Positions 15,569 through 28,739 of a stretch of DNA of 64,000 nt are shown in pieces (within the stretch, counting starts at the first letter, position 1; each line of letters starts with the position of its first letter). The position numbers and the translations under genes were made by a program. Below the pieces are notes generated by a model that was not told where the DNA came from, made no database searches, and saw only the letters and a list, made by a program, of their open reading frames with translations. This stretch comes from Bradyrhizobium barranii subsp. barranii (GTDB taxonomy: Bacteria > Pseudomonadota > Alphaproteobacteria > Rhizobiales > Xanthobacteraceae): contig NZ_CP086136.1 in the NCBI RefSeq assembly GCF_017565645.3, positions 6,369,501 to 6,433,500 on the forward strand, in the 5' to 3' direction.

Positions 15569-16305
15569 GCGCGCACCTCCCGCCACCAATGCACGCCATA
15601 AGCGATCGTGCCGGCCACCAAACCGCTGACGAGAATGTCGAGCCCGGAGTTCATCTTCGCGGCCAGCGGATAGAGCAGAACCCCGAGCGTCAGCGCGACG
15701 ACGTCGGCGACCTCGCGACTGTTGCGCGCGGTCGAGAACAGGAACGACAGCGGCGTCAGCATCAGGATCGCGGCGCCGAGCGTCTGCGTCAGGTTGGCGG
15801 CAAGGAAATAGCCGACCGTGTTGGCGGTGAGACACACGGAGACCAGACCAAAACCAAGTCCGTTGACGAAGGCGATGCGCCGCTCGCGCGGCACTTGCGG
15901 CAGGAAGCGATGGCATTCGACCCACAGTGTCACCGCCGTAAGATGCGCGGCGAAGAACAGCTCGCGCCGCTTGGTCGTCGACGTGCGCATCAGGGGCAGC
16001 ACCGAGACCACCATGGGAAACAGCCGGATCGCGCTGACGGTGACCGCGATCGCCGATTGGATGATGGTCGCGCCGGAGCCGAGCGTGGTGATCAAAATGA
16101 TCTGCGCGGGGCCGGCCCAGACGAACAGCGTCGAGCAGAGCGCCCAGAGCAGGCTGAAATGGGTGTCATGGGCGAGCGCGCCGATGCCGAGATAGGTCGC
16201 GAACAGGACAAGCGTGAGGATCGTCTGCGTGATCGAACGCAGTCCCCACGCAAACGCGCGCCAGGAACTTTGCCATTGAGGGGAATCGAGCGGAGGAAGC
16301 GCCAC
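15565..16305 (-). CDS. azlC: AzlC-family branched-chain amino acid exporter
   Basis: This 246-residue protein is the large subunit of the AzlCD exporter. It has about seven hydrophobic segments and the family motif FVWAGPAQIILI near residue 63, with SAIRLFPM in the next segment. It acts in the inner membrane with AzlD, whose gene overlaps it by four bases. Related BrnFE and YgaZH pairs export valine, isoleucine, leucine and methionine; the actual substrate here is inferred only from the family. Confidence 0.9.
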   Translation of the reverse strand: MALPPLDSPQWQSSWRAFAWGLRSITQTILTLVLFATYLGIGALAHDTHFSLLWALCSTLFVWAGPAQIILITTLGSGATIIQSAIAVTVSAIRLFPMVVSVLPLMRTSTTKRRELFFAAHLTAVTLWVECHRFLPQVPRERRIAFVNGLGFGLVSVCLTANTVGYFLAANLTQTLGAAILMLTPLSFLFSTARNSREVADVVALTLGVLLYPLAAKMNSGLDILVSGLVAGTIAYGVHWWREVRA

Positions 16306-16410
16306 GGGAGTCTTTGGCCGGATTGCGGAATCGTGCCCGCATAACGGGCAATGCTGTGGCTGGCGTCAAGGAAGCGCGCGGCGGGCTGGCATGCGCGCGC
16401 GCAGACGCGC

Positions 16411-17433
16411 CTACCCGCTCACACCCCGGTTCTTCAGCACGAAGCAAGCACCGCCGGCCTTGCGGATGCGGTTGCACAGATCATCCGCCTCACTCCTCGT
16501 GTCCGCGCCGATGCGCACCTGGTAGAAGGCGCGCGTACCACGGCTGCGCATCACCGAGCTTAGCAGGCTCGGATCGCGGTCGCCGATCACGGTGTTCAGC
16601 CGCGTGACGGCGCGGGAATACATCGCCAGCGCCCTGTTGCGGTCGAAGCCGGCAGCGAGCTGTACGCCCCAGACCTTTGCGGCGGCGAGCTCCACATGCT
16701 GCTCAAGCTCGGCGACGAAGGCATTCGGCGCGCGCTTCAGAAGCGCCATGAGATCGCGGCAGCTCGTCGGCGGCGAACTCGGCGGTCCCTTGCCGGTCGC
16801 TCCCGCCTTGGCCCACGCGTCAACGCTCGTGCCGGTGATGGCATAGACGTAGTTGCGGGTCTGCTCCGGCATGCCGCCGGTGCCGGCGAGCCATTCCTGC
16901 ACCCGGCGCGGCCCGGCGTTATAGGCGGCTGCGGCCAGACCGAGATTGCCGAACTGGTTGCGCAGCTCGTTCAAAAATTCGGCCGACTTCGGCAGCGCCT
17001 GCACCGGGTTGAAGGGATTGAGCAGCCCGCGCTCGCTGGCAGTGCCCGGCATGAACTGCGCGATCCCCTGCGCATGCTCGCCGCTGCGCGTCATCGGCCC
17101 CACGGCATCGGCCTGGAATCGGCTTTCCTGCCAGATCACGCGGGCGAAGAATTCCAGCGGCAGATTGGCATCCCGTGCGGCGGCCTCGACGATCAGGCAG
17201 ATCGATTCCCGCGTATCGCTCTCGCGCGCAGCGACCGGACTCGCCGGTGGCATCGCAAGCTCCTCGACGCTGGGGACAGCAATATTGGTCTTCGCGGGCG
17301 AACTGTCCCACGCCGCCACCCGTGTCGCCGAGACGAGCAGTGCGGCGATGATGAGTGATGCAGTTCGCGTCAGCCGTGCCCAAGCATCGCTGTGGCGTGC
17401 TCCGGCGCGGCATGCAACAAGATGATCTGCCAT
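16411..17433 (-). CDS. lytic murein transglycosylase (SLT domain)
   Basis: This protein of about 340 residues cleaves the glycan strand of peptidoglycan. Residues 1-38 are a basic then hydrophobic signal region ending in a VAA site. The soluble-lytic-transglycosylase domain contains the catalytic Glu in IWQESRF, then AQGIAQFMPGTA, and AAAYNAGPRRV. The C-terminal 100 residues resemble a SPOR-like fold, with TRAFYQVRIGADTRSEADDLC. The start is uncertain: ATG 17433 is used, but ATG 17451 is possible and neither has a strong ribosome site. The interrupted dctP-type gene is divergent. Confidence 0.85.
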   Translation of the reverse strand: MADHLVACRAGARHSDAWARLTRTASLIIAALLVSATRVAAWDSSPAKTNIAVPSVEELAMPPASPVAARESDTRESICLIVEAAARDANLPLEFFARVIWQESRFQADAVGPMTRSGEHAQGIAQFMPGTASERGLLNPFNPVQALPKSAEFLNELRNQFGNLGLAAAAYNAGPRRVQEWLAGTGGMPEQTRNYVYAITGTSVDAWAKAGATGKGPPSSPPTSCRDLMALLKRAPNAFVAELEQHVELAAAKVWGVQLAAGFDRNRALAMYSRAVTRLNTVIGDRDPSLLSSVMRSRGTRAFYQVRIGADTRSEADDLCNRIRKAGGACFVLKNRGVSG

Positions 17434-17689
17434 GTTGTGGCATCGTGCCATGGTTCGACGAGTTGCCAATATATGCTGTTTGACCCGCTTCTCCCAATGC
17501 GCTGCCCCGCCCCAGGGATCCGCGCGATCCTCGTCCTCGTAGCCCTCGTCCTGTCCGCCGCGCCCGCCATGGCGCAAGTCAACTGGCGGATGACCACGGA
17601 ATATCCGCAAAACAACATTTCCGGGATCGGGCTCACCAGTTTCGCCGATCGCGTCGCGGCGCGCACAAACGGTTTCGTGACCGTAGCTA

Positions 17690-18807
17690 GTACCCACTTT
17701 TCTTGGAACGTGAGTCGTGATTCAAGGTCGGGATGATACCCGAAGCAAGAGAAGTCCACCTTTCGAGGAAAGATCGCAAGGTGCTTGAGGCGTGCTGTCG
17801 CTCACCGGTGACGTTGCAGCGCGATTTGAAGCGGGCGCGGATAGTTCTGTTGGCGGCGGATGGGCGCAGCACCCGGTCGATCGCCAAGGAAGTTGGGGTC
17901 CAGCCGCGGATTGTCAGCCTTTGGCGGCATCGCTATGCCGACCATGGCCTTGAAGGGCTGCAAGACAAGCCGCGGCCTGGCAAGCAGCCGATCTATACGA
18001 AGACGACCGACAAGCGGATTCTGAAGCTGCTGGATAAGCCGCCACCGCAAGGGTTTGCGCGCTGGACCGGCCCCCTGCTGGCCGAGGCGCTGGGCGATGT
18101 CGATGTCCAATATGTCTGGCGGTTCCTGCGCAGCCACAAGATTGACCTGGTGGCTCGCAAGTCCTGGTGCGAGAGCAACGACCCGAACTTTACGGCCAAA
18201 GCCGCCGATGTTGTCGGCCTCTATGTCGCGCCGCCGGCGAAGGCCATTGTGCTGTGCGTGGACGAGAAGCCCTCGATCCAGGCTTTGGAGCGAGCGCAGG
18301 GTTATCTGAAGTTGCCCAATGGCCGCGCCTTAACCGGCCAAAGCCACGATTACAAGCGGCATGGCACCACAACATTGTTTGCGGCGCTCGAAGTCGCCAC
18401 CGGAAAGATCATCGCGACCCATTCAAAACGCCGGCGCCGCGTCGAGTTTCTCGATTTCATGAACAGCGTCACCGCGACTTTTCCGAACCGCAAGCTTCAC
18501 GTCATCCTCGACAACCTCAACACCCATAAAAAGAACGAGGACTGGCTCAAGGCCCACCCCAACGTGCAATTTCATTTCACGCCGACAAGTGCGTCATGGC
18601 TCAATCAGGTCGAAGTATGGTTTTCCATCTTGCAGGGGCAGTCGCTCAGCGGCACCTCCTTCACGAGCCTCAAGCAGCTTCAGGAACACATCGATGCCTA
18701 CGTCAACGCATACAACGACAGAGCCGAGCCCTTCGTCTGGACCAAGAAAAAGGTCCGTCAACGCCGTTTCAAAGGCCGCCGTATCACTCAGCTCTGATTC
18801 CGGGTAC
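17690..18807 (+). mobile_element. IS630-family insertion sequence, copy 1
   Basis: The 1118-bp element begins GTACCC and ends GGGTAC and is flanked by the duplicated TA of a CTAG target (C-TA-IS-TA-G), the known preference of IS630-type elements. It carries one transposase. It differs from copy 2 at only two positions in the compared length: A18332 against G26042 (silent) and A18477 against G26187 (Thr to Ala). Confidence 0.95.
17733..18797 (+). CDS. IS630-family transposase, copy 1
   Basis: This 354-residue DDE transposase has an N-terminal helix-turn-helix region (RSIAKEVGVQPRIVSLWRHR near residue 50) and a Tc1/mariner-like catalytic core. The acidic residues are visible in LCVDEKPSIQAL, VILDNLNTH and WLNQVEVWFSIL. 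The frame is intact. It carries Thr in SVTATFPN, where copy 2 has Ala. Confidence 0.95.
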   Translation: MIPEAREVHLSRKDRKVLEACCRSPVTLQRDLKRARIVLLAADGRSTRSIAKEVGVQPRIVSLWRHRYADHGLEGLQDKPRPGKQPIYTKTTDKRILKLLDKPPPQGFARWTGPLLAEALGDVDVQYVWRFLRSHKIDLVARKSWCESNDPNFTAKAADVVGLYVAPPAKAIVLCVDEKPSIQALERAQGYLKLPNGRALTGQSHDYKRHGTTTLFAALEVATGKIIATHSKRRRRVEFLDFMNSVTATFPNRKLHVILDNLNTHKKNEDWLKAHPNVQFHFTPTSASWLNQVEVWFSILQGQSLSGTSFTSLKQLQEHIDAYVNAYNDRAEPFVWTKKKVRQRRFKGRRITQL

Positions 18808-19691
18808 TAGCGCTTTCGACAACGAGCTCAAGATCAACTCGGGCGAAATGCCGGGCGCCGCGCTGGATGGTCGCATCGCCGGCGGCGACGCCTTCGCGGG
18901 CGCGCTTTCGGGCCTCGACCCGGTGCTCGGATTGTCCACCCTGCCCTTTCTGGTGCAGTCCGTCGACCTCGCCCGCGCCACCAATCTGCGGGCGCGCCCG
19001 CTCTACGAGAAGGCGCTCGCGGCGCGCGGCCTGAAGCTGCTCTATGTCACGATCTGGCCGGCCACGGGCCTCTGGTCGGACCATGCGCTCGAAGGCGCCG
19101 ACGCCCTGCCGAAACTGAATTTGCGGGCCTACGACGCCAACTCCGGCGAGGTCATGCGCGCGGCCGGCGCGAATGCACAGTTCCTGCCGATGGACGCGGC
19201 GCTCGCTGGCCTCAGGGAGCACCGGCTGAATGCGTTCCTCACCTCCGGCGACGGCGGCGCGGGACGCAAGCTCTGGGACTTCCTGCCCTACTTTACAGCG
19301 ATCAACTACGCGATGCCGGTCTCGATCGCCTTCGTCCGCAGCGACGCATTTGCCGAACTGTCCGAGCCGATGCAGCGCGAGGTGCTGGCCGCGGCGGCCG
19401 AGACCGAGCAAAGCCAATTCGCGCTATTGACCCATCGCACCATCGAAAATTATGCGCGCATGCGCGACAACGGCGTCCGCATCGCCGAGCCGGCGCCGGC
19501 GTCCCTCGTCGCCGCGCTCCGGAAAGCGGCAACGCCCGCGATCGCCACCTGGGAGACGCAGGCGGGCGCCGATGCCGCGGCGATCGTCGAATGGGCGAGA
19601 CAGCAATAGGGCGAGCCGTGGCGGCCGCCGGCTTGCCACAGCGGTGCTGCGTTGAAATGTCCGCCAGCCCCGCCCTTCACTCGCTTCGGTC

Positions 19692-19886
19692 CTATGCCGA
19701 GGCCGGCTTTTCTGCGCTGATTGCGCGGTCCAGGGCATCGATCAGCGTTTGAAGCTCGACGAATTTGTTCCGTGCTCGCTCGGCATTGTCGCGATCAAAG
19801 GGAGCGGCCAGCACCTTCGCATGCGTGTCTCTGTCCTCGATCATGCGATCGCGGGCCTTCTTCAATATGTCCAGTCGCTCGTTCAT
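19692..19886 (-). CDS. small coiled-coil hypothetical protein
   Basis: This 64-residue, highly charged protein is almost entirely helical: it starts MNERLDILKKARDRMIEDRD and has heptad-like LQTLIDALDRAI near the end. A GGAGAGG site precedes the ATG. The function is unknown. It is the last of a run of co-directional minus-strand genes that includes GH130 and the glycosyltransferase, with a 42-bp gap to the preceding gene. Confidence 0.65.
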   Translation of the reverse strand: MNERLDILKKARDRMIEDRDTHAKVLAAPFDRDNAERARNKFVELQTLIDALDRAISAEKPASA

Positions 19887-19928
19887 CTGTGCCTCTCCGC
19901 CAATATCTGCTCGACCACGATCAGGGCC

Positions 19929-20171
19929 TCAGTCGAAACCAGCCGGAAGCTCGCCCTTTCGGAAGAACACCGTAGGCTCATCGTCATAGTCGCCCATTTC
20001 GGGATCGCCGCTGGACGAGAACGCGACGACGCCGAGTTTGCTCAAGGCCAATCTCTCTGCCGTACGTAGCGCGCCGCTTTCCGACTTGCAGACGATGGGA
20101 GAGTCGGCCTTCAGATTTCCACCCTTGCCGGCGTTGAACGCCTGCACCACGTAGGTTGTTTCGCGGACCAT
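19929..20171 (-). CDS. small hypothetical protein downstream of GH130
   Basis: This 80-residue protein starts at ATG 20171, where AGAGGTG gives a good ribosome site. It contains a strand-rich YVVQAFNAGKGG start, an SGALRTAERLAL helix and an acidic DPEMGDYDDEP loop. It resembles small proteins of the kind seen near stress genes in Bradyrhizobium but has no named domain that I recognise. It lies 59 bp downstream of the GH130 gene on the same strand. Confidence 0.65.
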   Translation of the reverse strand: MVRETTYVVQAFNAGKGGNLKADSPIVCKSESGALRTAERLALSKLGVVAFSSSGDPEMGDYDDEPTVFFRKGELPAGFD

Positions 20172-20230
20172 GACGGCACCTCTGACCTGTTGACACACGG
20201 AGTTGACGTCAACGACCGCGACAGCCGCGC

Positions 20231-21529
20231 TCAGCCGCGCATCGCTTCGATGAGCGCGGAAATCCTGATCGTTGCAAAGCTGGAGAAGGTGTCCGACACG
20301 GCATATGGCAGGATGATCTGGTCATTGTGCCTCATCGCACCGCAGGTATAGACGACGTTGGGGACATACCCTTCGCGTTCGGACGGTTCAGGCCGCAGCA
20401 GCGGCTCGGCCGAGCGAGCCAGCACCCTGGACGGGTCGCGCTTGTCGAGCAGCGCCGCTCCGATCGAGTATTTCCGGATCGGGCCGACACCGTGCGTCAG
20501 CAGCAGCCAACCTTCGTCAAGTTCGATGGGTGCCCCGCAATTGCCGATCTGGACGAACTCCCAGGGAAATTGCGGTTTCAAAAGCACCCGGCCGCCCTCC
20601 CATGTGTAGAGGTCGTCCGAATAGACCAGATACAGGTTCTCATTGTCCTGTCGCGCGATCATGGCATAGCGGCCGTCGATCTTGCGTGGGAACAGCGCCA
20701 TGCCCTTGTTGTGTGCCGCAGCCCCCCGCAAAGGCGTTAGCCGAAACGACATGAAGTCGCTGGTCTCGATCAATTCAGACCGGATCGCACGTCCGCTATA
20801 GGCCGTATAGGTCGCGTAGTAGATCGCCCGATCACCGTCGTTGAATTTGACGAAGCGCGCATCCTCAATGCCGTTAGATTGGGATTCGGTCACGGGAAAG
20901 ATGACCCGCTCGCTGAGGTCTTCCTCGGGCCTGAACACCAGTTCCACACGGTCGCCGTCCGATCCGGATACGCGATGGCTGATCCGGGGCACCGAGGCGA
21001 GGCGCGCCGTCGGATCGACGGCCAGGCTTCCGTCAGCCGCAATCGTTCCGGTTCGAAACGTCAGTGACGACACATGCCCCTCGCCGATCGCCCGGAGGCT
21101 GACGATGAATCGCGAACCTCCGTTCGGTGCTCCCGATTGATCGGGGTGCGGGACGATGCTGGGGTTGAACAAGGCAGAGGCTTCGAACGAATACTCACTG
21201 AGAAAATAGGCACCAATCAGCTGGCGCTGCGTCTTCGAGAAGACGCCATGCGTGGCGAAAGCGTCCTCCATTTCATCCGCTCGGGTCTCGAACCGCTCCA
21301 GGAGGTTACGATGTCGCCCCTGGAAATTGTCGAGCACATCCGCAAGCTGAACTGCAACGGCCTCCGAACTGAGCGCCAGAACCCGGTCGACGATATGATT
21401 TGCACGCATCTTGTCGGTCGGGTTCAGGTCGCGGGGTTCGGTTGCCGGCTTGAAGGGCCGCACGATGACTCGCGCTGGATCGGGGCGCAGATTAAGCCCC
21501 TGCCGGTTCAGGAAAGAAGCTTGTGACAC
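20231..21529 (-). CDS. GH130-family glycoside phosphorylase or hydrolase
   Basis: This 432-residue protein has the five-bladed propeller motifs of GH130: NGIEDARFVKF (with the predicted general-acid Asp), HNKGMALFPRK, GAPIELDEGWLLLTHGVG and SIGAALLDKRDPSRVLARSAEPLLRPE. GH130 enzymes mostly phosphorolyse beta-mannosides, releasing mannose 1-phosphate. No signal peptide is present, so it acts in the cytoplasm. The start is GTG with GAGGATACC upstream. It lies 34 bp after a glycosyltransferase fusion gene, so the two should act on the same glycan. Confidence 0.88.
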   Translation of the reverse strand: MSQASFLNRQGLNLRPDPARVIVRPFKPATEPRDLNPTDKMRANHIVDRVLALSSEAVAVQLADVLDNFQGRHRNLLERFETRADEMEDAFATHGVFSKTQRQLIGAYFLSEYSFEASALFNPSIVPHPDQSGAPNGGSRFIVSLRAIGEGHVSSLTFRTGTIAADGSLAVDPTARLASVPRISHRVSGSDGDRVELVFRPEEDLSERVIFPVTESQSNGIEDARFVKFNDGDRAIYYATYTAYSGRAIRSELIETSDFMSFRLTPLRGAAAHNKGMALFPRKIDGRYAMIARQDNENLYLVYSDDLYTWEGGRVLLKPQFPWEFVQIGNCGAPIELDEGWLLLTHGVGPIRKYSIGAALLDKRDPSRVLARSAEPLLRPEPSEREGYVPNVVYTCGAMRHNDQIILPYAVSDTFSSFATIRISALIEAMRG

Positions 21530-21563
21530 GGTATCCTCGGCGTGCTGAATGAAAAGATGAAGT

Positions 21564-23849
21564 TCAGGCGCTCACGGCGCGCAAGGCTGTGGGCCTCGTC
21601 AAGCTCGGGTTGACGCGCGCAAGCTGGCGCATCTCGGCAAGCCCGAGGAGATAGCAAACAACGGACTCGCCCCCGCGGTTTTCGTTGGCGCGATCAGCGT
21701 GCAAACCATCCCGGCAACTGCCAGTGAGCGGATCGACCAGCGCCACTGAGAGATCGTTGCTGCCTAGGAACCAGGCGAAGGCCCGAGTTGCCATGGCTTT
21801 CCATTCGGCATCGCCATCGGCACGCCACGCGGCGAGGCAGGCGGCGATCGTTGCCGTTGCCTCCACGGGCTGCTGATCAAATGCACGGGGATGTTGCCGC
21901 CGCTCGCCGAAGCCGGCGGTGCCGACCGGCCGGAAATGCCCTGCCGCGGTCGTCTGCTGCGTCATGAGCCAGCGGAGAGACCTCAATCCGGCATCGAGAT
22001 ATTGGGGCGCCTGCGTCGCCATGCCTGTGAGGATCAGCGCCTGCGGCAGCCGCGCGTTGTCGTAGGCCAGCCCTTCCTCGAACCACACCCAGTCCGACGT
22101 CTCGACCGACGCCAGACACGCCATCAACCTGCCGGCAAGGGAATGCCGGACGTCCCTGGCGTGGAGATCGTCCGGAGCCACAGCGCAATAGGCGTCCAAG
22201 CCCAGCAGCATGAATGCCCATGCGCGGGGCGAACGAAAGCTCGCCGCGATCGACAATGCCTGGGCGAACAAAGCAGCGGCCCACAGGCGCCGGGCCGGGC
22301 TGGCGTCTCTGCGTGCAGCCTCGCCCAAAGCCCATAGCGTCCGCCCGTGACTGTCTTCTGACCCTCTGTCCTCAAGCCAGGTCCGATTGAACCCCATGAA
22401 GTTGCGAAATTGCCCGGTGTCGGGATTCCAGGCGTGCTGCACGAATGCCGCAAACCGGCTCGTTAGGATTTCCGACAGCGGCTGTTCGCCTGGACCATTG
22501 AGGGCGCAGGCCAGCAGCAGCGCTCGGGCATTGTCGTCGACGCAATAGCCGTGCGCGCGATCCGGCACCGAATGGACCGCATGCTGGAACAGGCCGACAT
22601 CATCGCACATCGACAGGAAATGGCCGATCTGCATATCGGGCGATGCGGGGCTACGTGGCTCCGGCACATTCATGTCCGAGCCCGCGAAGAGTTTAAGCCG
22701 ATGGCCTTGCCGTACATTCTCGAAGACGGACACGTAGCGCTCGGCCACCCGTTCCCATGTCATCATCCGGCTCGCCGCATAGGCGCGCCGCGACATCGCC
22801 TGCCGGCGGGCGTCGTCGGTCAGCAGGCCTGCGATCTCGTTGCCGATCGCCGCGGCGTCGCTGAAAGGCACCAGCACGCCGCACCCGTCGGCAAGCAGCT
22901 CGCGGGCGTGCCAGTAAGGCGTCGAGACGACCGGCTTCCCCAATCCGAAGCTGTAGGCCAGGGTTCCCGAGGTCATCTGGGCCTCGTTGAGATAGGGCGT
23001 GACATAGACGTCGCACATCGAGATGAATTCGAGCAGCGTGGCGAGATCCGCGAACCGGTCGAAGAACACCACGTGGTCGTCAATTCCGAGTTCGCGCACC
23101 CGCGCCATCAGGCTCTCGCGATAGGCCTCGCCCTGGTTTCGGACTAGGTTGGGGTGCGTTGCGCCAAGCACGACATACACCGCATTCGCGCAGCGCTTCA
23201 GAATCGACGGCATGGCGTCGATCATGATTTCGATGCCCTTGTTCGGTGACAACAGGCCGAATGTCAGGATGACCGATCTTTGCTCAAATCCAAGCTTGGC
23301 CTTCGCTGCATCAGGCTCGACGAAGGCGACATCCGGAATGCCGTGGGCGATGACCTCGATCTTGTCATCGGCCACCCGGTAGACGTCGCGCAGCAGTTCG
23401 CGGCCCTTATTGGCCATCACCACGACCTTCGACGACGCCTCGACGATGCGCTCCATGACCGTCCGCTGCGCAGGTGTCGGATCGGCGAGCACGGTATGGA
23501 ACGTCGTCACCACCGGCATGGCAAGGCGGGACAACAGCACGAGGATATGGGCCCCGGCCTCACCACCGAAAATCCCGAACTCGTGCTGCAAACACACGGC
23601 ATCGAACCGGCCGGCATTGAGGAAATCCGCGGCCCGCATGTAGTCTTCGATATTGCCGTCCTTGATCTGGAACGCGACCGCCGGAGGATAATCATAGGCT
23701 TGACCGCGATCGGTCATTGCCACGATGCAGGTCTCCAGATCCTGGCGCGAAATCGATATCGCGTTCTTCAGGTCGGTCGTATAGGTCGCAATTCCGCATC
23801 GTCGAGGCAGCGAGTTGCCGATCACGGCGATACGGCGGAGCGGCGTCAT
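21564..23849 (-). CDS. GT4 glycosyltransferase fused to a C-terminal helical domain
   Basis: This 761-residue protein has two parts. Residues 1 to about 385 form a GT-B glycosyltransferase of family 4: NSLPRRCGIATYT, FGLLSPNKGIE, and the EAQMTSGTLAYSFGLGKPVVST donor-site region. Residues about 400-761 are alpha-helical and rich in Trp and Arg (HGYCVDDNARALLLA, GRTLWALGEAARR, PVEATATIAACLAAW), resembling an alpha/alpha-toroid glycosidase-like domain. Such fusions could extend and trim, or measure, the same chain. The start has AGAGGTG. The GH130 gene follows by 34 bp. The sugar donor is unknown; mannose is inferred only from GH130. Confidence 0.85.
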   Translation of the reverse strand: MTPLRRIAVIGNSLPRRCGIATYTTDLKNAISISRQDLETCIVAMTDRGQAYDYPPAVAFQIKDGNIEDYMRAADFLNAGRFDAVCLQHEFGIFGGEAGAHILVLLSRLAMPVVTTFHTVLADPTPAQRTVMERIVEASSKVVVMANKGRELLRDVYRVADDKIEVIAHGIPDVAFVEPDAAKAKLGFEQRSVILTFGLLSPNKGIEIMIDAMPSILKRCANAVYVVLGATHPNLVRNQGEAYRESLMARVRELGIDDHVVFFDRFADLATLLEFISMCDVYVTPYLNEAQMTSGTLAYSFGLGKPVVSTPYWHARELLADGCGVLVPFSDAAAIGNEIAGLLTDDARRQAMSRRAYAASRMMTWERVAERYVSVFENVRQGHRLKLFAGSDMNVPEPRSPASPDMQIGHFLSMCDDVGLFQHAVHSVPDRAHGYCVDDNARALLLACALNGPGEQPLSEILTSRFAAFVQHAWNPDTGQFRNFMGFNRTWLEDRGSEDSHGRTLWALGEAARRDASPARRLWAAALFAQALSIAASFRSPRAWAFMLLGLDAYCAVAPDDLHARDVRHSLAGRLMACLASVETSDWVWFEEGLAYDNARLPQALILTGMATQAPQYLDAGLRSLRWLMTQQTTAAGHFRPVGTAGFGERRQHPRAFDQQPVEATATIAACLAAWRADGDAEWKAMATRAFAWFLGSNDLSVALVDPLTGSCRDGLHADRANENRGGESVVCYLLGLAEMRQLARVNPSLTRPTALRAVSA

Positions 23850-23957
23850 GTCGGCACCTCTATGATTTCGCTTGATGTCGGAGCGTGCACGGCGGGCGGA
23901 CGCGCCGGCGATTTCTGTCGTCCGTCACCCCTGCCACGCGCTGCTTGATTGCAAACC

Positions 23958-24212
23958 TCAACAGCCGCGACAGATATTCTTCAGCTTCGCTGCGGTTCTG
24001 GCCTCTTCCGCAATGAAGGGGTCCTTGTAGGCAGCCCGCGCGGCGTCTTGTTCGGCAGCAGTGGGTTGCTTCGGTTTCGGCGGAAACGCAGCGTCGTAGC
24101 ATGCGAGCCGTCCGCTCGTGCTCTCGATTGCGCGGCAGTCCGGCTCTTTCTCTTTCGCGACTGCGCTTTGCACGAATGTGCCAAGCGCCAATGCGACAAT
24201 AAGCATTTTCAT
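23958..24212 (-). CDS. small secreted protein with CRAIES...RLACYDA motif
   Basis: This 84-residue protein starts at MKMLIVALALG (ATG 24212, with GAGGAACG upstream). Residues 1-19 are a signal peptide ending in VAKA-like residues. The mature part has CRAIESTSGRLACYDAAFPP, a short motif also found in several otherwise unrelated envelope proteins, and a C-terminal CRGC. Four cysteines suggest one or two disulfides in the periplasm. It is 108 bp upstream of the glycosyltransferase gene on the same strand. Confidence 0.7.
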   Translation of the reverse strand: MKMLIVALALGTFVQSAVAKEKEPDCRAIESTSGRLACYDAAFPPKPKQPTAAEQDAARAAYKDPFIAEEARTAAKLKNICRGC

Positions 24213-24268
24213 ACGGGTATCGTTCCTCGCGGAGGATCCGGGCGCGCCGTTTGACGCCCCTGCGCTCC

Positions 24269-24463
24269 TCATGCCTCGAACTGGTCGAACTCGTCAGACA
24301 GCAGAACCCGGCCCTGCGGCGTGCATATCCGCACGTCGACATAGCCTTCCTGCAACAGCTCCCTCGCCTTCCTCAGAGCGGCGGCCGTCGTGGTGCGGGC
24401 CAGGCTGACGTAGCCGCTTTGATCGCGTCCGCTCACCAGATATTGGAGCGGCGTCCTATCCAT
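24269..24463 (-). CDS. small hypothetical protein of 64 residues
   Basis: This cytoplasmic protein starts MDRTPLQYLVSGRDQSGYVS and has an ALRKARELLQEGYVDVRICTPQGRVLLSDEF body with alternating strand and helix character. I recognise it as a recurring small protein in Bradyrhizobium but know no function. Its start overlaps the end of a 32-residue membrane-protein gene by eight bases, so the two should be translated together. Confidence 0.7.
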   Translation of the reverse strand: MDRTPLQYLVSGRDQSGYVSLARTTTAAALRKARELLQEGYVDVRICTPQGRVLLSDEFDQFEA

Positions 24464-24554
24464 GCAGAAAAGCCGCAGCGGCCACCAGGAGCAACAGAAA
24501 CAGCGGGACGATCACCGGCGGCACGATCCAGTCGGCCAGATTAAAGCGAGGCAT
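24456..24554 (-). CDS. 32-residue single-span membrane protein
   Basis: A very short frame encodes MPRFNLADWIVPPVIVPLFL followed by a Leu/Val/Ala-rich run ending FLHG. It has one transmembrane helix (about residues 10-30) and a short amphipathic start. An excellent GAGGAGGAG ribosome site precedes the ATG, and the stop overlaps the next gene by eight bases, both strong signs of a real gene. It is the first of the co-directional minus-strand cluster. Its role is unknown; tiny membrane proteins often bind larger membrane complexes. Confidence 0.72.
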   Translation of the reverse strand: MPRFNLADWIVPPVIVPLFLLLLVAAAAFLHG

Positions 24555-24761: not shown

Positions 24762-25400
24762 ATGGCTACAATCTTCTTCGATCTCGACGGCACGCTGACC
24801 AACCCGAAGCCCGGGATCACCCGCTCAATCCAATACGCGCTGGAGCGGCTCGAACTTGCCGTGCCGAGCGAGGACGAGCTGACCTGGTGCATCGGACCGC
24901 CCCTGCACGCCAGCCTGAAGAAGCTCACCGGAAGCGACGAGCTCGCCGACCGTGCGCTACTGCTTTATCGCGAGCGATTTGCCGATATCGGCCTGTTCGA
25001 GAACGAGGCCTATGCCGGCATCATCGACACGCTGACGACGATCGCCGCAACCAGCCAGCGCATGTTCGTCGCCACCAGCAAGCCCGCGGTCTACGCCATC
25101 CGCATCGTCGATCATTTCGGCCTGAAACCGTATTTCGAGCGCATGTTCGGCTCCGAGCTCGACGGCACGCGTGTCGACAAGCGCGACCTGCTGCGCTACG
25201 CGCTCGACGAAACGAAGGTCGATCCCGGCAGCGCGATCATGATCGGCGACCGCAGCCACGACGTGATCGGGGCCCGCACCAACGGCATGACCGCGATCGG
25301 CGTGCTCTATGGCTATGGCAGCGAGGCCGAGCTGCGGGATGCCGGCGCGCATCACATCTGCGCCGCGCATCCCGAACTGCTCAGTCACTGCGCAGCCTAG
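24762..25400 (+). CDS. HAD-family phosphatase (phosphoglycolate phosphatase-like)
   Basis: This 212-residue HAD hydrolase has motif I FFDLDGTLTNPKPGI with the nucleophilic Asp, motif II VATSKP, a Lys for motif III and motif IV IMIGDRSHDVIGA. The cap (residues about 15-80) is the helical type of Gph and PpaX relatives. It removes phosphate from a small cytosolic metabolite, not identifiable here. The TAG stop codon is made of the target TA and the first base of IS630 copy 2. Before insertion the same codon was supplied by the target CTAG, so the protein is unchanged. Confidence 0.92.
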   Translation: MATIFFDLDGTLTNPKPGITRSIQYALERLELAVPSEDELTWCIGPPLHASLKKLTGSDELADRALLLYRERFADIGLFENEAYAGIIDTLTTIAATSQRMFVATSKPAVYAIRIVDHFGLKPYFERMFGSELDGTRVDKRDLLRYALDETKVDPGSAIMIGDRSHDVIGARTNGMTAIGVLYGYGSEAELRDAGAHHICAAHPELLSHCAA

Positions 25401-26517
25401 TACCCACTTTTCTTGGAACGTGAGTCGTGATTCAAGGTCGGGATGATACCCGAAGCAAGAGAAGTCCACCTTTCGAGGAAAGATCGCAAGGTGCTTGAGG
25501 CGTGCTGTCGCTCACCGGTGACGTTGCAGCGCGATTTGAAGCGGGCGCGGATAGTTCTGTTGGCGGCGGATGGGCGCAGCACCCGGTCGATCGCCAAGGA
25601 AGTTGGGGTCCAGCCGCGGATTGTCAGCCTTTGGCGGCATCGCTATGCCGACCATGGCCTTGAAGGGCTGCAAGACAAGCCGCGGCCTGGCAAGCAGCCG
25701 ATCTATACGAAGACGACCGACAAGCGGATTCTGAAGCTGCTGGATAAGCCGCCACCGCAAGGGTTTGCGCGCTGGACCGGCCCCCTGCTGGCCGAGGCGC
25801 TGGGCGATGTCGATGTCCAATATGTCTGGCGGTTCCTGCGCAGCCACAAGATTGACCTGGTGGCTCGCAAGTCCTGGTGCGAGAGCAACGACCCGAACTT
25901 TACGGCCAAAGCCGCCGATGTTGTCGGCCTCTATGTCGCGCCGCCGGCGAAGGCCATTGTGCTGTGCGTGGACGAGAAGCCCTCGATCCAGGCTTTGGAG
26001 CGAGCGCAGGGTTATCTGAAGTTGCCCAATGGCCGCGCCTTGACCGGCCAAAGCCACGATTACAAGCGGCATGGCACCACAACATTGTTTGCGGCGCTCG
26101 AAGTCGCCACCGGAAAGATCATCGCGACCCATTCAAAACGCCGGCGCCGCGTCGAGTTTCTCGATTTCATGAACAGCGTCACCGCGGCTTTTCCGAACCG
26201 CAAGCTTCACGTCATCCTCGACAACCTCAACACCCATAAAAAGAACGAGGACTGGCTCAAGGCCCACCCCAACGTGCAATTTCATTTCACGCCGACAAGT
26301 GCGTCATGGCTCAATCAGGTCGAAGTATGGTTTTCCATCTTGCAGGGGCAGTCGCTCAGCGGCACCTCCTTCACGAGCCTCAAGCAGCTTCAGGAACACA
26401 TCGATGCCTACGTCAACGCATACAACGACAGAGCCGAGCCCTTCGTCTGGACCAAGAAAAAGGTCCGTCAACGCCGTTTCAAAGGCCGCCGTATCACTCA
26501 GCTCTGATTCCGGGTAC
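25400..26517 (+). mobile_element. IS630-family insertion sequence, copy 2
   Basis: This copy is in the same orientation as copy 1 (offset exactly 7710 bp) and has the same GTACCC/GGGTAC tips and TA duplication. The target CTAG held the stop codons of both the HAD gene (plus strand) and the aldoxime dehydratase gene (minus strand). Because the IS begins with G and ends with C, a TAG stop is recreated on each side. Confidence 0.95.
25443..26507 (+). CDS. IS630-family transposase, copy 2
   Basis: This 354-residue DDE transposase is identical to copy 1 except for Ala in place of Thr in SVTAAFPN. The HTH and the three acidic catalytic positions are intact. Ala is probably the ancestral or functionally equivalent state; which copy is older cannot be decided from the window. 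Confidence 0.95.
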   Translation: MIPEAREVHLSRKDRKVLEACCRSPVTLQRDLKRARIVLLAADGRSTRSIAKEVGVQPRIVSLWRHRYADHGLEGLQDKPRPGKQPIYTKTTDKRILKLLDKPPPQGFARWTGPLLAEALGDVDVQYVWRFLRSHKIDLVARKSWCESNDPNFTAKAADVVGLYVAPPAKAIVLCVDEKPSIQALERAQGYLKLPNGRALTGQSHDYKRHGTTTLFAALEVATGKIIATHSKRRRRVEFLDFMNSVTAAFPNRKLHVILDNLNTHKKNEDWLKAHPNVQFHFTPTSASWLNQVEVWFSILQGQSLSGTSFTSLKQLQEHIDAYVNAYNDRAEPFVWTKKKVRQRRFKGRRITQL

Positions 26518-27557
26518 TAGGCGCTGACGGTCTCGACCGCCGCCAGCATGCCGGTCTTCGAATGGCAGTTCAGATATTCGAAGAACTGCTCGTCCGCGGC
26601 GGCCACCGTGACCTCGTGATAGAGCCGTAGCTTTGCCGACGGCCCGAGCGTCGACAGGTATTTCATCGCCGCGCCGAATATCTTGACGTGGGTCGGATGC
26701 GACTCCGCCCAGCGCTCAAGTGCGGCGAGGCTCTTCCACCAGCTCTGGCCGTAAGACTTTTCGCTCACGCTGCCGTCGGCGGAGAGCACCTGCATGTAGC
26801 GGTTGGCGTAGCAGCCGATGGCTAGCCCGTCGTCGCGCAGGAAATCCATGCCCTCGCGTAGCACCGGCTCGACATCGTCGAGATAGAGCTTGCGCTCCGA
26901 CGCCTCCGTATCGCTCCAGTCCTGCCCGGAGCGGATCAGGCAGAGATTGTCGTGCGCCTTCACGCGCAGCCGCGCGCCGTCGCGGATCAATTCCGGCGCG
27001 CCGCCCGGCGTCATCGGATCGGTCTGCGACAGCGGAATGCGATCGCGCATGCCGCCCCAATAGGCGTGCTCCTGCACCTCGCCGCTCATGCCGTCGGCGA
27101 TTGCGGCCACGCCCTCGGGCCGGTCCAGCGAGGAGAACAGCGTCTCGTGCCGGGCGACTGTGGGACGCAGCACCTCGATGAAGGTGCCGATGCCCTCGCG
27201 CGCCTTCACAGTCCACGCCTCGCGTGCCGGCGCGAACCATGCGTCGAAGCGCGCGACGTCGTCCCAATAGGCGACCGACACGACGGTCTCATAACCGGCG
27301 CGGTCGACGTAGCGGGCGCGGTCCCAATGCGAAGGCCGGCCCTCGGCAGCAAATCGCGCCGCGATCTCGGCGAGTGCCGCCGTCGCAGCCGCCGGCGCGG
27401 CGCCGCGATACTGCACACCGAAATAGGCCATCACGACGCGGCTCACGGCGGGCTTGTAGCGCGCCACGAACGATGGATATGGCGGCTGGTAGTCGTCCGG
27501 CACGCGCTTGTGGCGCGTGCGCTGGGTCTCGAGATGCAGAGGAATTGCGGATTCCAT
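26517..27557 (-). CDS. oxd: aldoxime dehydratase (phenylacetaldoxime dehydratase family)
   Basis: This 346-residue cytoplasmic haem enzyme dehydrates aldoximes to nitriles. The start ATG 27557 has a GGGGAGGG site. Family segments are visible: PPYPSFVARY near the start, YWGGMRDRIPLS, GCYANRYMQ, THVKIFGAAMKYL and LRLYHEVTV, the last two carrying histidines expected at the haem. Its gene lies 28 bp downstream of a nitrilase gene on the same strand, so the pair should convert aldoxime to nitrile to carboxylic acid. Its stop codon is formed at the edge of IS630 copy 2. Confidence 0.93.
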   Translation of the reverse strand: MESAIPLHLETQRTRHKRVPDDYQPPYPSFVARYKPAVSRVVMAYFGVQYRGAAPAAATAALAEIAARFAAEGRPSHWDRARYVDRAGYETVVSVAYWDDVARFDAWFAPAREAWTVKAREGIGTFIEVLRPTVARHETLFSSLDRPEGVAAIADGMSGEVQEHAYWGGMRDRIPLSQTDPMTPGGAPELIRDGARLRVKAHDNLCLIRSGQDWSDTEASERKLYLDDVEPVLREGMDFLRDDGLAIGCYANRYMQVLSADGSVSEKSYGQSWWKSLAALERWAESHPTHVKIFGAAMKYLSTLGPSAKLRLYHEVTVAAADEQFFEYLNCHSKTGMLAAVETVSA

Positions 27558-27585
27558 GATCGTACCCTCCCCTTGATCCCGGCGA

Positions 27586-28602
27586 TCAGCTCGCCGCCGC
27601 CGCGATGTCCGTGGGCTCAATGGTGTCGACCGGCAGCGCGAACTGCTCGACGCGCTGGTATCGCTTCTTGTTGAGCAGGAGCCGCGTCACGTCGGGCCGC
27701 GAATAATGTCCGGCGGGATCGGCAGCGTTCTTGGCAATACCGATGGCGCCGAGATCGATCTCGGCAATCAGCAGCCCTTCCTGGTCCGGCGCCAGCTTGT
27801 CGCCGATCTGGCTGCCGTCGGGACCGTAGATCGCGGCGAATCCGCCGCCCACATGCAGCAACGCATTCTTGTCCGGCCGGTCGCAGAGCTCATCGATCAT
27901 GGCCTGCGAGACCGTCGCGCAAGGCGCGAGCACGAAGCAGGAGCCCTCCACCGCATAGACGCGCGAGGCGGCATTGTTGACCTCGGCGCCGAGCGCCGGC
28001 GCAAAGGGATCGTAGAGCGAGAAGCTCGGCCAGGCCGCGACATGCACCTGCTCATTCTGGGCGTACATCGCGTATTTCGACAGTGGCTGGAGATGCTCCC
28101 AGCAGCACAATGCGCCGATGCGGCCGATGTCTGGTCTCGCGTGGACGGCGAGATCGCTGCCGTCACCCTCGCCATAGACCGTGCGCTCGGCATGGGTCGG
28201 CCGCAGCTTGCGGCGCTTTGCGATGGTCTCGCCGTCCGGCCCGATCAGCCATTGCGCGAGATAAAGGCTGCCGCCGTCGCGCTCGGACAGGCCGAGCACA
28301 GCGGTGAGCTTTGCCTTACGTACGGCGTCGCGCAGCCGCTCGGCCTGCGGACTATCATAGGACAGCGAGTTGTCGAAGTAGCGCTGCACGAAGCCGCGGC
28401 CGATCGCCCAGGCAGGCGAGTCCATCCAGATATGCCAGGGGTAGCCGGGGATGAAGGCCTCGGGAAAGGCGATCAGCTTGGCGCCCTTCTCGGCGGCGTC
28501 CCTGATCAGCGCGATCGACTTGTCGATCGACGCGTCGAGATCCAGCCAGGCGGGCGCCGCCTGCACAACCGCGACCTTGTATTTCGGATGTTCGATGCCC
28601 AT
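27586..28602 (-). CDS. nitrilase (arylacetonitrilase-like)
   Basis: This 338-residue carbon-nitrogen hydrolase converts nitriles to carboxylic acids and ammonia. The catalytic triad is E48 (FPEAFIPGYP), K132 (RRKLRPTHAER) and Cys 166/167 (ALCCWEH). The start ATG 28602 is chosen for the GGAGGTG directly upstream; an ATG four codons earlier is part of that site. Bradyrhizobium nitrilases of this type have been reported to act on mandelonitrile-like substrates. It is the first gene of the nitrilase-aldoxime dehydratase operon and is divergent from an AraC regulator. Confidence 0.94.
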   Translation of the reverse strand: MGIEHPKYKVAVVQAAPAWLDLDASIDKSIALIRDAAEKGAKLIAFPEAFIPGYPWHIWMDSPAWAIGRGFVQRYFDNSLSYDSPQAERLRDAVRKAKLTAVLGLSERDGGSLYLAQWLIGPDGETIAKRRKLRPTHAERTVYGEGDGSDLAVHARPDIGRIGALCCWEHLQPLSKYAMYAQNEQVHVAAWPSFSLYDPFAPALGAEVNNAASRVYAVEGSCFVLAPCATVSQAMIDELCDRPDKNALLHVGGGFAAIYGPDGSQIGDKLAPDQEGLLIAEIDLGAIGIAKNAADPAGHYSRPDVTRLLLNKKRYQRVEQFALPVDTIEPTDIAAAAS

Positions 28603-28739
28603 TGCCACCTCCATTGCCGGTTGATCGGAAGCCACGTCCGATGCAGTCTATTTGGCCAAGCCACCCGGCCGGGCGCTCGACCGCGGTGGAACAAAAACTC
28701 GACTGGCCGGGATCGCCGACGGGTACGGGACTTGCCTTC

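Follow-up and report, generated by a model that had tools for sequence, protein, structure and literature searches.

A conserved gene pair encoding a GT4-toroid fusion and a long-form GH130 enzyme in Bradyrhizobium barranii and other bacteria, possibly part of an intracellular mannose-glycan pathway

We analysed a 64,000-nucleotide stretch of the Bradyrhizobium barranii subsp. barranii genome (contig NZ_CP086136.1, positions 6,369,501 to 6,433,500 of the forward strand), hereafter called the window. Between positions 19692 and 24554 it harbours seven open reading frames (ORFs), all on the minus strand, rather than the eight genes counted in a preliminary description. Its central observation, a 761-residue glycosyltransferase fusion followed 34 bp downstream by a gene for a glycoside hydrolase family 130 (GH130) enzyme, is borne out by the ORFs and by Pfam cut-offs. 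The features of the interval, beginning with the pair and its upstream junction, are as follows.

21564-23849, minus strand: gene for the fusion of a family 4 glycosyltransferase (GT4) with a toroid, 761 residues, core of the module
22695-23849, minus strand: GT4 domain of the fusion, residues ~1-385, aligned to solved GT4 enzymes
21615-22652, minus strand: C-terminal (alpha/alpha)6 toroid of the fusion, residues ~400-745, from a predicted model
20231-21529, minus strand: long-form GH130 gene, 432 residues
23873-23936, minus strand: 64-bp interval at the apparent former position of an isomerase gene
23958-24272, minus strand: small Cys protein of 104 residues, weakly VasI-like, a neighbour outside the module
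24269-24463, minus strand: 64-residue protein, neighbour
24456-24554, minus strand: 32-residue hydrophobic protein whose gene overlaps the previous one, neighbour
19929-20198, minus strand: 89-residue protein encoded 3' of GH130, neighbour
19692-19886, minus strand: 64-residue protein, neighbour

Using the GT4 protein of the window, we retrieved 67 loci, each corresponding to a genome-contig match. Both the GT4-toroid and GH130 are encoded in 63 of them, with a median gap of 34 bp; the gap ranges from -53 to 1146 bp, and the outliers correspond to a broken reading frame or an uncertain start. Clustering of the neighbouring gene families, which took in 43 of the 67 loci with a crude choice of ORFs, showed that beyond the core genes no family recurs in more than 8 of the 43, some minor families there having been left unidentified. 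Full-length GT4-toroid proteins (E <1e-60) were found in 19 of 398 Pseudomonadota genomes, and GH130 proteins of any kind (E <1e-10) in 36. The long GH130 form (E <1e-100) is present in 17 genomes, all of them among the 19, and in each of them a copy adjoins the GT4-toroid gene. A naive hypergeometric test of this co-occurrence yields 5e-28, a value inflated by shared ancestry. In three loci with GT4 identities of 45-49% the arrangement has changed: GH130 lies upstream on the same strand in genomes G145 (locus L089) and G180 (L090), and the two genes are convergent in G357 (L088). As the pair is still adjacent despite the altered order or orientation, its adjacency has outlived rearrangement. 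The distribution within the genus is patchy, with full-length GT4-toroid genes in 18 of 35 sampled genomes and fragments in two. The unit conserved in evolution is the GT4-toroid plus GH130. The preliminary description had made its proposal depend on the co-occurrence of these genes in other genomes, and the pair is indeed kept together far beyond the genus.

A gene for a divergent class I mannose-6-phosphate isomerase (manA) lies directly upstream of the GT4 gene in 49 of the 63 testable loci. This count across all 67 loci, which leaves out L056, L071, L073 and L077 because they start inside or at GT4, replaces an earlier tally of 22 in the 43 clustered loci. Of these 22 isomerase ORFs, 15 overlap the GT4 start by 4 bp. 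Three of the proteins score 43-60 bits against TIGR00218, below its cut-off of 116.2, indicating a divergent relative; PF20511 is narrowly below its cut-off in one of the three, and the L022 protein matches PDB 1qwr at 8e-19.

The window has 64 bp at this position, versus 968 bp including the isomerase gene in L017, and no isomerase similarity is left in the 64-bp interval. Eight of the 14 loci devoid of manA (L014, L015, L016, L019, L020, L026, L034 and L066) are close relatives of the window, with GT4 identities of 88-99%. Loss is the simpler reading, because relatives of 89-90% identity (L017, L018, L059 and L070) retain the gene; manA has thus apparently been lost in the window's Bradyrhizobium clade. 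A search of the window's own genome with the L022 isomerase, run without a positive control, revealed no relative, and a PF20511 search of that genome gave no match, the same profile finding one in 7 of the 14 genomes used as controls. Isomerase activity may come from a PF01050 protein encoded by a 502-residue frame of the genome. PF01050 represents another isomerase type, and the neighbourhood of two distant families additionally includes a PF01050-GT4 fusion and a second GH130. The PF01050-fused GT4, a short GH130, the long GH130 and the GT4-toroid are all present in L137 (5014-11272); three of these four genes are found in L136 (1-4649), which is cut by the contig end, and L138 (5892-9002) has the PF01050-fused GT4, the short and the long GH130 before its contig ends. 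The presence of two types of mannose-6-phosphate isomerase beside the pair is the best hint of a mannose-handling pathway, and it fits the mannose chemistry proposed in the preliminary description.

We read the pair, with a probability of roughly one half, as a conserved intracellular mannose-glycan module that would handle both alpha and beta linkages and whose ancestral order would be manA, GT4-toroid, GH130.

The GT4 half of the fusion scores 39.9, 61.8 and 63.9 bits against PF13439, PF00534 and PF13692, respectively, all above the cut-offs. The canonical donor motif of GT4 enzymes consists of Arg-x4-Lys and EX7E. The window protein departs from it, with L199 in place of the Arg and Q291 and Y299 in place of the two glutamates. 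L199, K204 and Q291 are present in all 38 full-length sequences, as are H118 and H169, and Y299 is found in 37, with Phe in the remaining one. Our alignments comprised 31 toroid, 26 GH130 and 23 GT4 sequences selected from the 67 loci plus the window, and sequences with in-frame stops (GT4 of L067 and GH130 of L061) were excluded from the conservation counts.

The model predicted for the C-terminal domain has an (alpha/alpha)6 toroid fold, which supports the guess made in the preliminary description. No Pfam family covers this domain, in which D438, D439, D499, E591, D658, D714 and E728 are invariant. In structural comparisons, in which AGE epimerase, GH76 and GH9 were considered, it resembles hydrolase and epimerase folds. 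No stand-alone toroid was detected at E 1e-4 in the 398 genomes, the 19 matches lying within fusions in the same 19 genomes. Paralogues of the fusion made up of GT4 only exist in G279 and G385, and L132 (5999-14402) carries a long GH130 with a GT4-only paralogue amid Usp, BON and P-type ATPase genes. Among the closest known proteins is YPO2471 from Yersinia pestis (PDB 7tem), which differs from the fusion in that its entry has no GT4 part and names it as a putative exported protein; its name gave no match in the open-access literature searched.

The constancy of L199, Q291 and Tyr or Phe at position 299, the canonical residues retained by the second GT4 of such neighbourhoods (3 of 3 compared) and the likeness of the toroid to hydrolases and epimerases could mean that the GT4-toroid is a processing enzyme, phosphorylase- or hydrolase-like, rather than a nucleotide-sugar transferase, and that the two genes serve to remodel a glycan whose synthesis takes place elsewhere. 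We consider this rather improbable: K204, H118 and H169 are equally constant, so the site may have kept the ability to bind a phosphorylated or activated sugar, and GT4 subfamilies vary at donor-site positions. The solved GT4 relatives in our alignment, which include PimA and 3c4q (which we take to be MshA), act on lipid or small acceptors, and the pair might transfer alpha-mannosyl groups to a polysaccharide or lipid of the cell surface, with GH130 recycling precursors. That seems very unlikely; the recurring neighbours were not seen to include a flippase, polymerase or ligase, although no search was aimed at them.

To return to the intracellular module, its second enzyme scores 126 bits against PF04041 (cut-off 26). 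It reaches 159.3 bits, below the threshold of 450, with NF052550, the equivalog profile for beta-1,2-mannobiose phosphorylase, and is thus by profile a relative of that enzyme and not the enzyme itself. The GH130 class features, an invariant catalytic Asp and a five-bladed propeller, are both present, the latter in a predicted model where the propeller follows helices at residues 37-109. No signal peptide was seen by eye. D223, K275, R293 and H346 are shared with each of the four different solved enzymes compared, and none of them varies among the 26 aligned GH130 sequences. GH130 mannoside phosphorylases are marked by three basic phosphate-binding residues, where hydrolases have Glu; the conserved K275, R293 and H346 are candidates for these positions. 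By sequence comparison, the window enzyme appears closest to beta-1,2-mannoside phosphorylases, and two Thermoanaerobacter enzymes are its closest solved relatives by E-value.

GT4 enzymes are retaining and yield alpha-linked products. The preliminary description had envisaged a glycan that is built and then phosphorolysed, in the simplest form by GT4 and GH130 acting on one bond, but GH130 enzymes are reported to act on beta-mannosides with inversion (PMC4599007). Because GT4 forms alpha linkages and GH130 acts on beta ones, this simple cycle fails. The products described for the mannoside synthase Uhgb_MS include beta-mannosyl-(1-2)-alpha-1,2-mannotriose (PMC8950772); as this product carries both linkages, a mixed-linkage glycan would escape the stereochemical conflict. 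In the module as we picture it, the GT4 half would make the alpha-linked part of the glycan, as a primer or backbone, and the fused toroid would act at a second active site on the GT4 product, by binding it, trimming it or processing it in another way. GH130 would most likely work reversibly in the cytosol, as a phosphorylase/synthase of beta-mannosides (probably beta-1,2) that exchanges beta-linked mannose with alpha-mannose-1-phosphate and thereby extends, caps or discharges the alpha-linked product. The mannose-6-phosphate isomerase would connect mannose phosphates to fructose-6-phosphate and central metabolism, and the cell would be able to build and draw down a small internal mannoside or mannan; a cytosolic storage glycan is possible. 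The genes and the way they are linked, manA as a partner that is missing here, the identity and active-site residues of GH130, the toroid fold and the altered GT4 donor site come from the sequences and models described above, from which we infer the donor, the acceptor, the linkage, the direction of GH130 in the cell, any catalysis by the toroid and a storage or protective role.

The best reading of the comparisons with known systems is that the pathway may be related to a GH130 cluster of Thermoanaerobacter and to mannogen metabolism in Leishmania. The former, a 12-gene cluster described in 2014, comprises a GT4, two GH130, a mannose-1-phosphate guanylyltransferase, an ABC importer and a GH5 enzyme (PMC4264767). 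The preliminary description knew of no system of this composition. The joint occurrence of GT4 and GH130 genes is thus precedented, but we recognised no description of the GT4-toroid/GH130 module itself in the open-access literature, as judged from listings and the first parts of abstracts. As in the window, a GT4 and cytosolic GH130 enzymes are encoded together in Thermoanaerobacter. The ABC importer, the GH5 and the guanylyltransferase were not seen to recur beside the window-type pair in the 43 clustered loci, where not every neighbour was identified, and the window GH130 is longer than the Thermoanaerobacter enzymes, with predicted N-terminal helices.

That cluster suggests another role for the pair, in which GH130 would phosphorolyse imported beta-mannosides to alpha-mannose-1-phosphate, which would then be converted to GDP-mannose for GT4, as proposed for Thermoanaerobacter. 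Such salvage is consistent with the gene content of the cluster, with the kinship of the GH130 enzymes by E-value and with a TRAP solute-binding gene that adjoins the pair in 10 of the 67 loci. This gene, however, is on the other strand, occurs in Bradyrhizobium-type loci only and is disrupted in the window, and the low recurrence of non-core neighbours also argues against salvage, which we regard as unlikely. The parallel with Leishmania lies in mannogen turnover by GT108 enzymes, which involves an internal beta-1,2-mannan, propeller enzymes and mannose-1-phosphate (PMC8950772), as would the proposed pathway, and GT108 structures are among the structural matches to the window GH130. Uhgb_MS (PDB 9erg), itself a GH130 enzyme that synthesizes mixed-linkage mannosides, is also among the closest known enzymes. 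A full bacterial counterpart of mannogen, that is, a mixed alpha/beta mannan made by a GT4 with a non-standard site, with the toroid as a new catalytic family and the long GH130 charging and discharging the polymer via mannose-1-phosphate, appears distinctly unlikely.

Several observations weigh against the intracellular mannose-glycan module. The nearest solved enzymes share only ~22-31% identity with its GH130, and the beta-1,4 enzymes lie only ~2-4 Z units below the beta-1,2 ones, which leaves the linkage uncertain. Canonical donor residues are missing from the GT4 domain. L037, L042 and L049 carry the GT4-toroid without GH130 although the sequence continues; in the fourth of the 67 loci without the pair, L072, the contig ends inside GT4. 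G184 and G192 have no adjacent GH130, the former at a contig edge and the latter with a shorter GH130 elsewhere. Conversely, G083 and G279 contain three extra copies of the long GH130 that lack a neighbouring GT4-toroid, and G167 and G172 hold pieces of the long GH130 at contig ends with no GT4-toroid match. The absence of manA from 14 of the 63 testable loci and the TRAP gene, which could mean import, also count against it. As a separate observation, L049 harbours a GH94 glycoside phosphorylase gene (16091-18271; PF17167, 1.5e-116) ~6 kb from its GT4-toroid.

All seven genes of the interval were compared with up to 17 Bradyrhizobium-type loci, matches spanning less than 70% of a protein being excluded. 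The ratio of nonsynonymous to synonymous substitution rates (dN/dS) is at most 0.31 in every comparison for six of the seven genes. For the 32-residue protein, with only 29-34 residues compared, it is 0.10-0.40 in seven comparisons, 1.10 in L014 and undefined in L066, where dS is zero. From these values the small genes are real, and all seven ORFs look like genuine genes, the 32-residue one being the least certain. The preliminary description had placed the small proteins in a single functional cluster with the pair. Their genes are found in 15-19 of the 67 loci: 17 for the 64-residue protein at 19692, 19 for the 89-residue protein, 18 for the Cys protein, 15 for the 64-residue protein at 24269 and 19 for the 32-residue protein, which is short and hydrophobic, such that some of its matches may be due to chance. 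The loci concerned are labelled Bradyrhizobium except L015, L025, L041 and L056 (metagenome-assembled genomes or related); L015 is labelled Frankia sp. and its GT4 is 93% identical. Within the genus, some small genes lie downstream, far upstream or on the opposite strand (L022, L028 and L062), and the 64-residue gene at 24269 is displaced or inverted in L028 and L062. The small genes thus look like local neighbours of the pair, and their inclusion in one functional cluster is not supported.

The Cys protein probably starts ~20 residues later than annotated here, its relatives aligning from residue 20-21, and it scores 26.2 bits against PF11319 (VasI), below the cut-off of 26.5, with 54 of 184 positions covered. 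The 64-residue protein at 24269-24463 has no Pfam or NCBIfam match. Its gene overlaps that of the 32-residue protein (24269-24554), and the two are also found together in L028 and, inverted, in L062; they may form a small system of their own. None of the seven proteins matches the PADLOC anti-phage defence models at E 0.01.

The interval is flanked by two IS630-type elements in the same orientation, at 17690-18807 and 25400-26517, which are 99.7% identical over 1129 bp. The corresponding region is free of them in L066, from Bradyrhizobium barranii subsp. apii, whose GT4 protein is 99% identical, and there is therefore no obvious sign that the block was mobilised as a composite element. About 1.6 kb of L066 sequence is missing from the window at the left element. 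The module is bordered by the TRAP-type gene and by one for a HAD phosphatase, both in the same 10 loci (L014-L018, L020, L026, L034, L059 and L066), the window segment concerned being 18790-19609. Beyond the right element, two minus-strand genes at 26517-28635 look like those for an aldoxime dehydratase and a nitrilase; the opposite strand carries an AraC-type gene. In nine of the 67 loci (L022, L079, L043, L045, L047, L053, L060, L074 and L080), GH130 is followed after ~1.4-4 kb by genes for a GH13 enzyme and for another GT4, of canonical type. Stress-type neighbours are anecdotal: Usp, BON and P-type ATPase in L132, a ferritin-like protein in L068 and, apparently, GroEL-like proteins in L039, L052 and L076.

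One promoter was predicted, versus 1.4 expected, and eight terminators, versus 4.6 expected; none of either falls in the gap between GT4 and GH130. We also considered a stress-regulon promoter, using GGAAC-N15-18-[C/T]GTT, which we take to be the EcfG-type pattern. Across 63 loci, one match was found in the 400 bp that precede the first gene, versus 0.4 expected. Over the 67 loci together, the 600 bp upstream of GT4 contained six matches, and a further count gave five matches inside manA; the candidate was dropped. Rfam at gathering thresholds and tRNA scans gave no match.

An eight-gene cluster with regulatory small proteins is unsupported; biochemical work is merited on the conserved pair and the isomerases that accompany it, on the toroid without a Pfam family and on the unusual donor site of GT4. 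If our reading is correct, soil and root bacteria would hold an internal mannose-glycan pathway of which no description was found in the literature searched, with a GT4 donor site that breaks the usual rule and a fused domain that lies outside Pfam. The toroid would then possibly represent a new enzyme family, and the pathway a bacterial parallel to Leishmania mannogen.

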